This document shows, piece after piece, positions 37,319 through 41,324 of a stretch of 64,000 nucleotides of DNA. The notes under the pieces were generated by a model that did not search any database, was not told the origin of the DNA, and worked only from the letters and a program-made list of their open reading frames with translations. Source of the DNA: Kibdelosporangium persicum (GTDB lineage Bacteria; Actinomycetota; Actinomycetes; Mycobacteriales; Pseudonocardiaceae); assembly GCF_013280595.1 (NCBI RefSeq), contig NZ_JAAATY010000002.1:1-64000 (forward strand). Direction: 5' to 3'. The translations under genes and the position numbers were made by a program. How positions within the stretch are numbered: the first letter of the stretch is position 1; each line of letters opens with the position of its first letter.

Positions 37319-38221
37319 ATGACTGCAGTGCCGAACGCAACGGCTGACCCGTCGAGGCCGAGCAAGCCGAAGCGATCGAAGACGCGTCCGCTGGTCATCA
37401 CCCTCGTGATCCTGCTCGCCCTGCTGGTCGGGGTGGATTTCGGCGCCGCCGCGGTGGCGGAGTACCAGGTCTCCAAGCGCGCGAAGGAGGCGTTCGGGCT
37501 GTCCGACGACCCGGCGGTGACCGTGCGCGGCTTCCCGTTCCTGACCCAGGCGATCGGCGGCGAGTACGACCACATCACGGTGGACGCCCGCGGTGTACCG
37601 ATCAAGGACATCCTCAAGGACGTCGAGGTGCACGCCGACCTGCGCGGCGTCCAGGCACCGCTGTCGGACCTGCTGGCCGGGCGGACGGACACGATCTCGG
37701 TCAAGGAGATCGAAGGCCAGCTGCGGGTCAAGGAGGCCGACTTCAACCGCGCACTGCAGTCCAACCAGCTGCGCGTGCGCACCAGCGACATCACGAACGT
37801 GACGATCGCGCCGGTCAGTGAGAAGCGGGTGAACGCCACCGCGAGTGGCGAGGAGGACATCGACGACAAGGCCGACCAGGAGGCCCTGAAGCAGGAGTCC
37901 GAGGACACCACGGCGGGCGTGCGGGTCGGCGCGACCGTCGACTTCGCCGGACAGCAGACCGACATCGTCGTCTACGCGATCGTCAGCCTGGTCGAGGCCA
38001 AGATCCAGGTCGCCCCGAAGCGGATCTCGCTGGCCAACTCGATCGGCGACAACCTGCTCGCGCCGAACATCCAGCAGCAGCTGCTGCCGCTGTTCGCGGT
38101 CAACCTCGACCCGGGCAAGCTGCCGGTGGCGATCACGCCGACGGCCGTGCAGGTCGACCCGGGCTCGCTATCGTTGAAGGGCAAGGCGCAGGACGTGAAA
38201 CTGCGAGGCTTCGTGGGATGA
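37319..38221 (+). CDS. DUF2993 (LmeA-type) membrane-anchored protein
   Basis: A 300-residue protein with a basic N-terminus, one transmembrane anchor (PLVITLVILLALLVGVDFGA, residues ~24-43) and an external DUF2993 domain. LmeA, the mycobacterial member, is a periplasmic lipid-binding protein affecting mannan elongation of lipoglycans. It overlaps the thioredoxin-like gene by 4 bp (ATGA). Position matches Rv0817c. Confidence 0.85.
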   Translation: MTAVPNATADPSRPSKPKRSKTRPLVITLVILLALLVGVDFGAAAVAEYQVSKRAKEAFGLSDDPAVTVRGFPFLTQAIGGEYDHITVDARGVPIKDILKDVEVHADLRGVQAPLSDLLAGRTDTISVKEIEGQLRVKEADFNRALQSNQLRVRTSDITNVTIAPVSEKRVNATASGEEDIDDKADQEALKQESEDTTAGVRVGATVDFAGQQTDIVVYAIVSLVEAKIQVAPKRISLANSIGDNLLAPNIQQQLLPLFAVNLDPGKLPVAITPTAVQVDPGSLSLKGKAQDVKLRGFVG

Positions 38222-38628
38222 CCGGGGTCTGGGTGCTGATCGGCACGCTCGCCGTGGCGAGCCTGCTCGGTCTGGCCTGGCGCCGCTCCCAGGGCCGGGT
38301 ACGCCAGGGAAAGACCGTGATGCTTCCCCCTGAACTGCACAAACTGGTGGATCCGGGCAGCCGGGTGACGCTGCTGCAGATCTCGACGACGTTCTGCGCA
38401 CCGTGCCGGCACACCCGGATTCTGCTGTCCGACATGGCCGAGAAGGTCGACGGCCTGCGGCACGTCGACTTCGACGTGACCAACCACCCCGAAGTGGCCT
38501 CGTCGCTCGGCGTGCTCACCACGCCGACCACGCTGGCCGTGGACGCGAAGGGCACGGAGCTGATGCGAGTGGGCGGCGTGCCCAAGCGGGACAGGCTGCT
38601 CGACGCGTTGCGTCCGCACCTCGGCTGA
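38218..38628 (+). CDS. Membrane-anchored thioredoxin-like protein
   Basis: A 136-residue protein with an N-terminal membrane segment (VWVLIGTLAVASLLGLAW) and a thioredoxin fold whose redox site is TTFCAPCRHT (CxxC). The cis-proline is in LTTPTTLAVD. It corresponds in position to M. tuberculosis ThiX (Rv0816c), next to sulfur-transfer genes, and may reduce or deliver sulfur intermediates. Its start overlaps the DUF2993 gene. Confidence 0.88.
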   Translation: MTGVWVLIGTLAVASLLGLAWRRSQGRVRQGKTVMLPPELHKLVDPGSRVTLLQISTTFCAPCRHTRILLSDMAEKVDGLRHVDFDVTNHPEVASSLGVLTTPTTLAVDAKGTELMRVGGVPKRDRLLDALRPHLG

Positions 38629-38700
38629 GCCGCTCGATCGTCTGTCCCAGTGGGTGGACAGCGGTGCTCTGAAATGTGAGATCCGGGTACCCTCACCACC

Positions 38701-38778
38701 GTGTATACGTTGCTGACCAGGCGCCGCGCGGTGGACTACTGCCGCGTGGACTCGAGCCTCTGTCCAGCAACCCTCTGA
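38701..38778 (+). CDS. Cysteine-containing leader peptide (attenuator)
   Basis: A 25-codon ORF beginning GTG. The core LTRRRAVDYCRVDSSLC resembles the actinobacterial sulfur-assimilation leader peptides (pattern L-x-x-R-R-x-V-D-x-C-R-V-x-S-x-L-C). A -10-like taccct at 38688-38693 puts the likely transcript start at or next to the GTG, so it is leaderless. It is followed by the DUF4395, thiosulfate sulfurtransferase and SseC-like genes. Ribosome stalling at its two cysteine codons would sense cysteine supply; this mechanism is inferred from mycobacterial relatives. Confidence 0.8.
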   Translation: MYTLLTRRRAVDYCRVDSSLCPATL

Positions 38779-38848
38779 CCAGGCGATCCCGCGCCCGAAA
38801 GCTCTGAAGAGAGCGGCGCATCCCGCTGTCTGCCCGCAGGTCAGGAGG
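38772..38848 (+). promoter_or_regulatory. Leader mRNA with anti-Shine-Dalgarno pairing
   Basis: cctctgacc (38772-38780), which contains the leader peptide stop codon, can pair with ggtcaggagg (38839-38848), the ribosome-binding site of the DUF4395 gene, with a single bulged G. A small gctct/agagc hairpin lies between. A ribosome on the end of the leader ORF would therefore change access to the downstream start. Confidence 0.55.
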
Positions 38849-38852
38849 ACAC

Positions 38853-39284
38853 ATGTCCGTCGATCCCCGTGGTCCCCGGCTCGCCGCCTGGATCACGACC
38901 GCTGTACTGGCCGTCGCGCTCGCCACGCAATGGTGGCCACTACTCGCTGCACAGGCCGTGATCTTCGCCATCGGCGCGTTCGCCGGGTTGAGATACGCAC
39001 CCTATTCGTTGATCTACAAGCACTTCGTCGCGCCGCGGCTGCGGCCGACCGGCGAGCGGGAGGACGCGGCTCCGCTGCGGTTCGCCCAGGGCGTCGGGTT
39101 CGCCTTCGCCGCTGTCGGCACGGTCGCGTTCGTGCTGGGCGCCTCCACGCTCGGCATCGTCGCGACGGCGTTCGCGCTGGCCGCGGCGTTCCTCAACGCC
39201 GCGTTCGGCTTCTGCCTCGGCTGCGAGACCTACCTGCTGCTGCGCAGGCTCACCCCGTCCGTCGGCCGGCAGACACCGGCCTGA
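38853..39284 (+). CDS. DUF4395 membrane protein
   Basis: A 143-residue integral membrane protein with about four helices and the family cysteine motif FGFCLGCETYLL near residues 120-131. DUF4395 proteins are regularly found beside thioredoxins and rhodaneses; the CxxC-like pair may take part in sulfur or redox transfer at the membrane. AGGAGG lies four bases before the ATG and can be masked by the leader RNA. Confidence 0.88.
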   Translation: MSVDPRGPRLAAWITTAVLAVALATQWWPLLAAQAVIFAIGAFAGLRYAPYSLIYKHFVAPRLRPTGEREDAAPLRFAQGVGFAFAAVGTVAFVLGASTLGIVATAFALAAAFLNAAFGFCLGCETYLLLRRLTPSVGRQTPA

Positions 39285-39323
39285 TCCGCCCCAACCCCCC
39301 GAAGAGAAAGTGAGAGGCGCTCG

Positions 39324-40166
39324 ATGAGCCGCGAAAACGTGCTGGTGTCGGCCCAGTGGGCCGAGGACAACCTCGAGACGCCAGGGGTGGTGTTCGTCGA
39401 GGTCGACGAGGACACCAGCGCATACGAGACCGGGCACATCCCGGGTGCTGTCAAGGTCGACTGGAAGAACGAGCTGCAGGACCCGGTCCGCCGCGACTTC
39501 GTCGACCGGGCGGGCTTCGAGAAGCTGTTGTCCGAGAAGGGAATCGCCAACGACGACCTGGTGGTCCTGTACGGCGGCAACAACAACTGGTTCGCCGCGT
39601 ACGCGTACTGGTACTTCAAGCTGTACGGCCACGAGACGGTGAAGCTGCTCGACGGCGGCCGCAAGAAGTGGGAACTGGACGGCCGTCCGCTGTCGCAGGA
39701 CGTCGTCAAGCGCGACGAGACCCAGTACACCGCGCAGGAGCAGAACCTCAAGCTGCGGGCGTTCCGCGACGAGGTGGTCGACGCGATCGGCACCAAGAAC
39801 CTGGTCGACGTGCGGTCGCCGGACGAGTTCAGCGGCAAGCTGCTGGCCCCGGCGCACCTGCCGCAGGAGTCCGCGCAGCGTCCCGGCCACGTGCCGAGCG
39901 CGATCAACGTGCCGTGGGCCAAGGCCGCGAACGAGGACGGCACCTTCAAGTCCGACGACGAGCTTCGTGAGATCTACAAGGAAGCCGGCATCGACGAGGC
40001 CAAGGCGACCATCGCCTACTGCCGGATCGGGGAGCGTTCGTCGCACACCTGGTTCGCGCTGCACGAGCTGCTCGGCTACGAGGACGTCAAGAACTACGAC
40101 GGTTCGTGGACCGAGTACGGGTCGCTGGTCGGCGTCCCGGTCGAGACCGGCACTGGCAAGGAGTGA
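39324..40166 (+). CDS. sseA: Thiosulfate/3-mercaptopyruvate sulfurtransferase (CysA/SseA type)
   Basis: A 280-residue two-domain rhodanese. The C-terminal active-site loop is AYCRIGERSSHTWF, with the persulfide-forming cysteine followed by the CRIGER loop typical of actinobacterial thiosulfate sulfurtransferases. The N-terminal domain is inactive, as usual. It passes sulfane sulfur from thiosulfate to acceptors. It is followed after 2 bp by the SseC-like gene, as in M. tuberculosis cysA2-sseC2. Confidence 0.94.
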   Translation: MSRENVLVSAQWAEDNLETPGVVFVEVDEDTSAYETGHIPGAVKVDWKNELQDPVRRDFVDRAGFEKLLSEKGIANDDLVVLYGGNNNWFAAYAYWYFKLYGHETVKLLDGGRKKWELDGRPLSQDVVKRDETQYTAQEQNLKLRAFRDEVVDAIGTKNLVDVRSPDEFSGKLLAPAHLPQESAQRPGHVPSAINVPWAKAANEDGTFKSDDELREIYKEAGIDEAKATIAYCRIGERSSHTWFALHELLGYEDVKNYDGSWTEYGSLVGVPVETGTGKE

Positions 40167-40168
40167 AT

Positions 40169-40468
40169 GTGAGCAGCAGCTGCGGAGCACCTGACCAGGC
40201 CGCGCCGATCGCGGGCGCGGAGGGCCAGACCGTCCTGTCCGGACGGGTTCTGTCCGGAGAGGCCCCGGTCGGCGGCGCGTTCGTGCGCCTGCTCGACGGC
40301 AACGGGGACTTCACCGGCGAGGTCGTGTCGTCGCCCGACGGCGAGTTCCGGTTCTACGCCGCGCCCGGCACGTGGACGGTGCGTGCGCTGCACCGCACGG
40401 GCAACGGCGAGGCGTCGGTCCAGGCCGACGGTCCGGGCGTGCACGAGGTGGCCGTGGCCGTCGCCTGA
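40169..40468 (+). CDS. DUF1416 protein (SseC-like)
   Basis: A 99-residue beta-rich protein of the DUF1416 family. It begins VSSSCGAPDQ with a conserved near-terminal cysteine, followed by an Ig-like/transthyretin-type fold (GAFVRLLDGNGDFTGEVVSS). It always accompanies CysA-type sulfurtransferases and may accept sulfur; the chemistry is unproven. GTG 40169 is the start; an ATG two bases earlier is out of frame. A strong terminator follows. Confidence 0.88.
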   Translation: MSSSCGAPDQAAPIAGAEGQTVLSGRVLSGEAPVGGAFVRLLDGNGDFTGEVVSSPDGEFRFYAAPGTWTVRALHRTGNGEASVQADGPGVHEVAVAVA

Positions 40469-40484
40469 TCGACCCTGACGCGAC

Positions 40485-40518
40485 AACCGGGTGGCCCGAA
40501 CGGACCACCCGGTTTTTT
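40485..40518 (+). terminator. Rho-independent terminator of the sulfur operon
   Basis: A 10-bp stem (aaccgggtgg / ccacccggtt) with a 10-nt loop, running straight into six T residues. It separates the sulfur operon from the nitrobindin operon. Confidence 0.92.
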
Positions 40519-40584
40519 GCTGCCCGGTGTCCTGGCCCCTCGGGCTGTCGCGAGCCGCGGCCCGACGGCGGTTATCCTCAGTGC

Positions 40585-40683
40585 GTGCACCTGATTTTCA
40601 CCTCGTTGCTGGTCATCATGGCCCTCGCGACCCTGTGGTTCGCGGGTTACGTCGTCTACCGGCTGTACAGCGACCAGCGCTGA
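40585..40683 (+). CDS. 32-residue single-pass membrane peptide
   Basis: A GTG-initiated 32-codon ORF: a short polar start, one hydrophobic helix ([20 protein letters not shown]) and the tail YRLYSDQR. A -10 element TATCCT at 40573-40578 lies seven bases before the GTG, indicating a leaderless mRNA. Its TGA overlaps the ATG of the nitrobindin-like gene (TGATG), so the two are translationally coupled. No family is recognised. Strong promoter placement, coding bias and coupling make it likely real despite its length. Confidence 0.7.
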
Positions 40684-41324
40684 TGAGCACGGACAACAGC
40701 GAGTCCGTGCCGGGAAGTGGCGACGCGGCCGTGCAGGCGGCGGCGGAACGGGCCAAGCTGACCCGGCACCGCAACGTGCCGCAGTTCGACGACATGCCGA
40801 TCCCGGCGGACACGGCGAACCTGCGCGAAGGCCCGGAGCTCAACGACGCGCTGCTGGCGTTGCTGCCCCTGGTCGGCGTGTGGCGCGGCGAGGGCGAAGT
40901 CGTCTATCCCACATTGGACAAGACTCACAAGTTCGGCCAGCAGCTCACGTTCGCCCACGACGGCAGGCCGTTCCTGTACTACGAGTCCCGGGCCTGGCTG
41001 CTGGACGACGACGGCAACGTGATCCGTCCGGCGGCGCGCGAGGTCGGCTGGTGGCGGCCGCAGCCGGACGACACGATCGAGCTGCTCCTCACACACGCGA
41101 CCGGGATCGTGGAGATCTTCTACGGCAAGCCGCGCACGCAGACCTCGTGGGAACTGGCCACGGACGCGGTCGTGCGGACCGCGACGGCCAAGGAGGTCCT
41201 GGGCGCCAAGCGGCTGTACGGCCTGGTCAACAACGGTGACCTGGCGTACGTCGAGGAACGCGCGATGGTGGGCCAGGAGCTCCAGCCGCACACGTCGGCG
41301 TACCTGACTCGTATCGTCGGCTGA
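40683..41324 (+). CDS. Nitrobindin-like haem-binding beta-barrel protein
   Basis: A 213-residue protein of the FABP-like/nitrobindin family. The barrel starts at [18 protein letters not shown] near residue 60 (the G-x-W-x-G-x-G motif), and the proximal haem histidine is in [15 protein letters not shown] near the C-terminus. Nitrobindins bind ferric haem and react with peroxynitrite or NO. Position and sequence fit M. tuberculosis Rv0813c. The ATG overlaps the stop of the small membrane peptide gene. Confidence 0.88.

Follow-up and report, generated by a model that had tools for sequence, protein, structure and literature searches.

In this locus of Kibdelosporangium persicum, a 25-codon leader open reading frame probably turns on the sulfur genes behind it at cysteine shortage, and a fold of the leader's stop region would hide the ribosome site of the next gene. 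With a probability of about three in four, the element is a cysteine-responsive translational attenuator similar to the mycobacterial Ms5788A leader and devoid of a polycysteine run. Comparison across genus groups makes a convincing case that the pairing between the stop region and the downstream Shine-Dalgarno (SD) sequence is real. The most interesting lead is a near-invariant UGU codon close to the end of the leader.

The window, that is, the whole stretch of 64 kb that was analysed, belongs to a genome of 10.35 Mb. The leader occupies positions 38701-38778 of the forward strand and encodes MYTLLTRRRAVDYCRVDSSLCPATL* (from the sequence, its translation and profile matches), with a GTG start at 38701 and a TGA stop at 38776-38778; the first-pass annotation had given both the sequence and the coordinates of this frame correctly. 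A -10 promoter hexamer, TACCCT (38688-38693, forward strand), is located 7 nt ahead of the GTG. The 120 of 128 related loci that combine an in-frame RTG with sufficient upstream sequence were scanned for TANNNT, which stands 5-8 nt before such an RTG in 118 of them, nearly always at a spacing of 7 or 6, and occurs in 0-1 of 120 loci at each of five shifted control positions, the scan being free to pick among several RTG codons and the controls being tied to one anchor. The hexamers support a transcript that begins on the leader's GTG or close by, and thereby back the earlier description of the frame as leaderless. The leader core itself is present in 78 of the 80 DUF4395 loci of the genome-contig scan, the exceptions being L070 and L077.

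The first gene of the presumed controlled operon (38853-39284, forward strand) encodes a DUF4395 protein (PF14340, E 4.2e-47), and its start codon, ATG 38853, was picked by SD strength. It is followed on the same strand by genes for a CysA2-like thiosulfate sulfurtransferase with a double rhodanese domain (39324-40166; PF00581; best solved chain 3aax, E 2.9e-146) and an SseC-like DUF1416 protein (40169-40468; PF07210, E 5.7e-38), so that all the downstream genes named previously were matched by their families. A thioredoxin-like gene (38218-38628) lies on the other side of the leader from DUF4395. Downstream of the operon, 40683-41324 encodes a THAP4-like heme-binding domain protein (PF08768), whose match to a peroxynitrite isomerase model falls below the cut-off. 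The closest named match of the DUF4395 protein, at 90% identity, is from Kibdelosporangium aridum; the next records carry the labels Rhodococcus rhodnii, Actinosynnema sp. and K. philippinense.

The putative anti-SD segment CCTCTGACC (38772-38780, forward strand) straddles the TGA stop and is complementary to GGTCAGGAGG (38839-38848, forward strand), which comprises the DUF4395 SD and a 5' extension. The two segments form 9 pairs with one bulged G, precisely the complementarity, bulge and positions that had been proposed from the sequence. Among the 128 loci, 55 have the motif TCAGGAG in this SD region. The CCTCTGACC:GGTCAGGAGG helix is contained in the predicted minimum-energy fold of 38701-38865, whose energy of -71.2 kcal/mol (z -2.37) was equalled by 4 of 200 shuffles. 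When the 21-nt stop region was shuffled 20000 times, 132 of the shuffled versions reached an equal pairing with the SD, and so did 208 of 21300 21-mers of the window. The complementarity in the window alone is thus only modestly improbable, amounting to a coincidence of about 1% per site, and for this reason relatives were collected.

DUF4395 turned up in 267 of the 297 genomes covered by a family search; 29 of the 30 loci that this search returned were used, the window's own copy being left out, together with 60 further listed places, while a scan of genome contigs with the DUF4395 protein contributed the 80 loci kept. The resulting 170 sequences, window included, comprised 128 unique leader-to-start regions, 28 duplicates and 14 dropped loci. 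A leader is nevertheless present in 11 of the 14, where it had been missed by the pattern or by the start-codon rule, and none is seen in the dropped loci L070, L077 and L157. Genus groups of loci known by contig name and of MAGs were assigned by us, and the identities of group g50 as Streptomyces and of family f2 as Mycobacteriaceae are inferences; the f2 locus L254 (g187) coincides with the named Hoyosella locus L065 in the printed stretches.

The duplex energy of each group's stop region with its own SD region was compared with the energies obtained with the SD regions of other groups, using the 121 of 128 loci in which stop and start are more than 36 nt apart (34 genus groups). The 21-nt stop region pairs better with its own SD in 23 of 34 groups, by more than one standard deviation in 13, and no better than with those of others in 11, the mean z of matched versus mismatched pairs being -0.60. 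No such preference is displayed by the Leu-Thr repeat (mean z 0.02), the regions of the first (0.02) and second Cys codons (-0.20) or the sequence following the stop (0.03; 31 groups). A permutation test with 15-nt windows, at most 5 loci per group and 20000 genus permutations located the peak, among 29 windows tried, at stop-9..+5, where matched pairs reach -11.63 and mismatched pairs -9.58 kcal/mol (z -5.6) and 0 of 20000 permutations were as good. The same test anchored on the second Cys codon gives a weaker signal (best z -3.7), and when anchored on the leader start the co-variation signal is absent. Sliding the target instead (at most 4 loci per group; 31 groups, 110 loci) yields z -5.7 for start-24..-4 and z -6.7 for start-16..+4; in the five target windows with little or no SD overlap the values lie between -1.5 and +1.3. 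This localisation shows the SD to be the partner of the stop region.

The co-variation persists at p 5e-5 without the window's own genus g1 and also without g1, g45 and g20. It has the same p within the 21 Pseudonocardiaceae groups and is weaker in the 10 groups outside this family (p 0.014), genus permutations leaving some relatedness between genera in all these statistics. Within f2 (26 loci, 14 groups) the peak is shifted to stop-15 (z -3.2, p 0.0007), with z -2.8 and p 0.003 at stop-12 and nothing significant at stop-9 (p 0.06; 14 groups). Compensatory changes are seen in individual loci. TGACCTG is accompanied by CAGGTCA in L098 and L115, while L037 has TGATCTG with CAGATCA and its Leu-Thr codons stay CTGACC despite the changed stop:SD pair. 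Similarly, the stop segment CTGACTG faces the SD CAGTCAG in L093 and L095, and L091, whose C-terminus differs and whose stop lies further along, nevertheless retains CCCTCTGACCAGG. In the Amycolatopsis-like group g16 (14 loci) and in Actinomadura (13 loci) the peptide is retained and no stop:SD pairing is seen. Taken over the 34 genus groups together, the complementary segments co-vary, and the earlier proposal that the stop region masks the downstream ribosome site gains support from this co-variation; that the leader RNA sequesters the site is a computational result.

The Leu-Thr codons contain a second sequence of potential interest, since CTGACCAGGCG (38713-38723, forward strand) is a copy of the stop segment 38775-38785. 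The two copies were considered as competing anti-SD sites, an idea that was rejected on the mean z given above for the first copy and on permutation z values of -0.5 to +0.2. As no matched-over-mismatched signal exists over all groups, the copy is probably coincidental, a by-product of Leu-Thr codon use. In the Actinokineospora-like group g45 the best-pairing window coincides with the first CTGACCAGGCG copy in 11 of the 14 loci listed, and there this copy pairs better with its own SD than with those of other groups (z -1.4).

The position of the co-varying element also bears on transcriptional control. A consensus scan found no terminator-like site in 38600-40600 and so no intrinsic terminator between the leader and the first gene, as a trp-type transcription attenuator would have, and Rfam gave no match at gathering score across the 64-kb window. 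The untranslated RNA after the leader might instead serve as a Rho site, with ribosome position deciding termination, a possibility that accommodates the missing terminator; the available text of a 2005 study, which predicted terminator-less cysteine leaders upstream of mycobacterial cys operons, suggested Rho for them (PMC1262725). The conserved element is a complementarity between one place in the leader and one in the SD, which would be superfluous for Rho control, and we regard this explanation as very unlikely.

The two core Cys codons of the leader, which the first-pass annotation had treated as equals, behave differently in codon counts from relatives. The first, Cys14 (TGC, 38740-38742, forward strand), is dispensable across the family, and the last, Cys21 (TGT, 38761-38763, forward strand), is the only one kept and the proposed sensor and stall codon. 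In the 128 unique leaders (38 groups) the last Cys is TGT without exception, as it is in the 11 dropped loci with a leader, and the first is TGC in 123 of 127, L037 having Gly instead. L158 and L159 (genus g40) carry Arg in place of the first Cys (VDYRRVASSLCR) and retain TGT for the last. By comparison, TGT makes up 37 of 673 Cys codons in neighbouring-gene segments (110 loci, duplicates included) and 32 of 211 in long window frames with high GC3.

The same codon recurs in paralogous NF042934 leaders. Sixteen of 17 g50 genomes (taken for Streptomyces) hold 6-13 leader profile matches and the remaining one holds 3. From 88 parsed g50 loci, mostly better-scoring matches, 76 unique peptides were obtained after a misparse (L214) was dropped, and their last Cys is TGT in 73, TGC in 2 and Ser in 1, against TGT in 16 of 72 other Cys codons of the same leaders and 88 of 539 in nearby frames; the first Cys occurs in only 24 of the 76. 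The paralogue L303 has Ser at the last core Cys and a Cys (TGC) four codons earlier, and L214, by the printed frame, has a stop at that place and likewise a Cys four codons earlier. Among f2 paralogues (taken for Mycobacteriaceae) the last Cys is TGT in 25 of 27 unique peptides, one misparse being dropped, compared with 48 of 113 other leader Cys codons and 15 of 126 in nearby frames, and the codon two before the last Cys is also TGT in 22 of 24. Two further leaders are present in the genome of the window, both on minus strands. One (L177, contig C4 ~265631-265690) encodes MRHALLLTQRRYLDQGRLASSMCHPGQL with a last Cys TGT, precedes an SDF-family (PF00375) symporter gene at a distance of 37 nt, counting from the first stop-codon base, and has a stop region pairing with the SD at -11.4 kcal/mol, a figure without control. 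The other (L176, C11 ~210838-210897) is a leader-like frame, MSAVVPVLLVARRHVDFLRVNSDLCRR, before a nitrite/sulfite reductase gene (PF01077), and its Cys codon is TGC, an exception within the same genome.

Conservation of the last Cys as an amino acid is partly built in, because the leader pattern and the paralogue profile both favour Cys there; the choice of codon is not. Looser patterns without this demand revealed no DUF4395 leader lacking the last Cys. One core Arg (128 of 128 leaders) uses about 3.7 effective codons and a core Val (123 of 128) uses 3.1, a core Asp being present in all 128, where the search pattern demanded that Arg and Asp and restricted the Val. With synonymous codons changing freely at other core positions, common descent does not account for the fixed TGT. 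The retention of non-Cys residues while their codons drift, together with the persistence of related motifs in g50 paralogues without the first Cys, would also suit an arrest peptide, in which LTxRR(A/H)VDxxRxxSxx in the exit tunnel and the UGU pause the ribosome, perhaps in response to something other than Cys-tRNA. Against arrest, runs of Cys codons in mycobacteria fit a plain tRNA-supply model. We rate nascent-chain arrest as rather unlikely, and it could be combined with SD masking as the output.

In this genome the tRNA family search and ARAGORN yielded tRNA-Cys with a GCA anticodon only, among 30 of 64 hits, and a tRNA-Cys pattern search found nothing. G34 of tRNA-Cys(GCA) reads UGU by wobble. 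A second, divergent tRNA-Cys (GCA) lies in a tRNA-rich cluster at G000:C22:122801-122871 (L329) and is, at 34.1 bits, the lowest-scoring among the tRNA hits listed. Frameshifting at UGU was rejected: as far as the start, 84 of 124 loci have an open +1 frame (71.5 expected) and 61 of 124 an open -1 frame (72.4 expected), with no clear excess in either. The predicted pairing partner of the third UGU base is A in 89 of 121 loci and G in 13; another 19 show no clear partner, and the partners differ between clades. An in silico U-to-C change shifts the energy needed to open the SD by 0.5 kcal/mol on average (54 loci; above +1 kcal/mol in 10, below -1 in 1) and destabilises the leader fold by a mean of 2.1. 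Alifold lends hardly any support to structure within the leader (-0.97 kcal/mol). RNA structure may contribute to the choice of UGU, and given the near absence of TGC versions a reason at the level of the codon is favoured.

From the leader, its -10 box, the conserved pairing and the codon signature we infer translation, stalling, a cysteine response and its direction, as follows. The mRNA would begin at the leader GTG and a leaderless ribosome would translate the leader. With ample Cys-tRNA, the ribosome would pass both Cys codons and exit at the TGA, whereupon the stop-region RNA would pair with GGTCAGGAGG, hide the DUF4395 ribosome site and keep the sulfur operon low. With Cys-tRNA short, the ribosome would wait with UGU, the last Cys codon, occupying its A site and its leading edge on or beside the anti-SD, the helix would close less well, and the freer SD would allow DUF4395-rhodanese-SseC to be made.

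The geometry of this attenuator was modelled with the ribosome as a mask extending to +14 nt from the first base of the P-site codon. The mean modelled cost of opening the SD over 34 groups is 6.6 kcal/mol without ribosome, 6.4 with the first Cys codon in the A site, 4.8 with the second there and 5.6 for a ribosome at the stop. Moving the stall from the first to the second Cys gains more than 1 kcal in 15 of 34 groups and brings a loss in 3 (38 and 14 of 121 loci, respectively). In a subset of 18 groups, picked after the pairing results because most showed pairing, a gain appears in 13 of 18 at each of three ribosome edges and a loss in 0, 1 and 2 of 18. In the window, the stall at the second Cys does not open the SD at edge +14 (8.8 to 10.1 kcal/mol) and gains about 1.9 kcal at edges +17 and +20. 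In the model only a stall at the last Cys nears the anti-SD, again distinguishing the two codons that had been treated alike. The modelled geometry thus fits a last-Cys stall, which would explain why that codon is retained, and for the window locus itself the model is weak.

A point against masking is that a terminating ribosome also covers the anti-SD. Under translational coupling, a ribosome that has read the leader as far as the stop would open the SD helix and so boost initiation, the cysteines tuning ribosome arrival. A terminating ribosome must open the helix, because the stop sits inside it, and the modelled opening costs above, 5.6 kcal/mol with a ribosome at the stop versus 6.6 without, point the same way. 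In L100, L103, L110 and L111 the leader frame extends across the SD and stops only 4 nt short of the DUF4395 start codon, an architecture that would imply coupling rather than masking. Coupling leaves the kept last Cys and its TGT codon unexplained, and the modelled gain is on average larger at the second Cys than at the stop, which is not so in the window at +14 or +20; we consider it quite unlikely and prefer attenuation through a stall at the last Cys.

Polycysteine leaderless attenuators were reportedly described in mycobacteria by Canestrari in 2020. NCBIfam NF042933 is the Ms5788A family, the mycobacterial homologue of the window leader, which matches it with 33.3 bits (E 2.7e-8), below the cut-off of 45. 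The Ms5788A family and the window leader share a leaderless short frame with an LTxRRAVDxCR core upstream of DUF4395/cysA2 genes, and in both there is co-variation between the SD and leader RNA close to the stop. In contrast to Ms5788A, the window leader has two Cys seven codons apart instead of a polycysteine run, and its pairing segment straddles the stop, whereas that of Ms5788A is located mainly in the last codons. The family NF042934 (cis_reg_atten, 'putative leader peptide') displays the same core, the last-Cys position and the TGT codon. It is a sequence family named without mechanism in its listing, its paralogues precede other genes, and the window leader scores 22.1 bits as protein and 20.2 in the genome search, short of its cut-off of 27.

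In the available parts of the sources, the Ms5788A-type leader is described as a cysteine-responsive attenuator (PMC9031893, PMC9094748, PMC13236596), with occlusion of the SD by the uORF (PMC13236596, PMC9031893) and uORF-SD pairing relieved by stalling (PMC13236596) described for such systems. The term 'distinct translational switch', previously applied to the window leader, is hence too strong. Part of a further study reports that the mycobacterial cysA2 leader is ribosome-occupied in 2015 data and calls it a candidate for cysteine-directed attenuation (PMC4633059), and a Streptomyces lividans survey, in its available portion, lists 8 leader peptides, none of the family of the window leader (PMC8079986). 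The LEU element of actinobacterial leuA is similar in that a codon run of its leader frame has been proposed to pair with a downstream SD, and different in that the Leu codons themselves pair, a pseudoknot is proposed, and both amino acid and gene are others (excerpts of PMC1262725). Likewise uORFC-8-2 of Rhodobacterales cysS has Cys codons in a frame upstream of a cysteine gene and differs by a terminator-like stem with a U run, two tandem Cys codons and dominance of UGC (excerpts of PMC8632094). In the accessible parts of the open-licence literature, no mention of the UGU signature or of the stop:SD co-variation was found; Canestrari 2020 may contain either. The mechanism is of a known kind, and the non-polycysteine, stop-straddling form is a variant of it.

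A tentative and rather doubtful extension would treat the whole LTxRRxVDxxRxxSxxC family as a one-codon Cys sensor, in which the conserved nascent peptide and the near-invariant UGU, read only through wobble by tRNA-Cys(GCA), fix the point of stalling. Every lineage would evolve anew an anti-SD directly in front of the stalled ribosome, across the stop in this leader and within the final codons in mycobacterial ones, with the first Cys and the polycysteine run as accessories. The comparative evidence points to joint evolution of the leader stop region and the downstream ribosome site, so that the masking model can be put to the test on individual pairs. With the UGU signature, the vague term 'cysteine-rich leader' becomes a prediction for one codon, according to which a single synonymous UGU to UGC change should blunt the switch. 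As the leader family is multi-copy and precedes other genes, the rule of one leader could apply to many.
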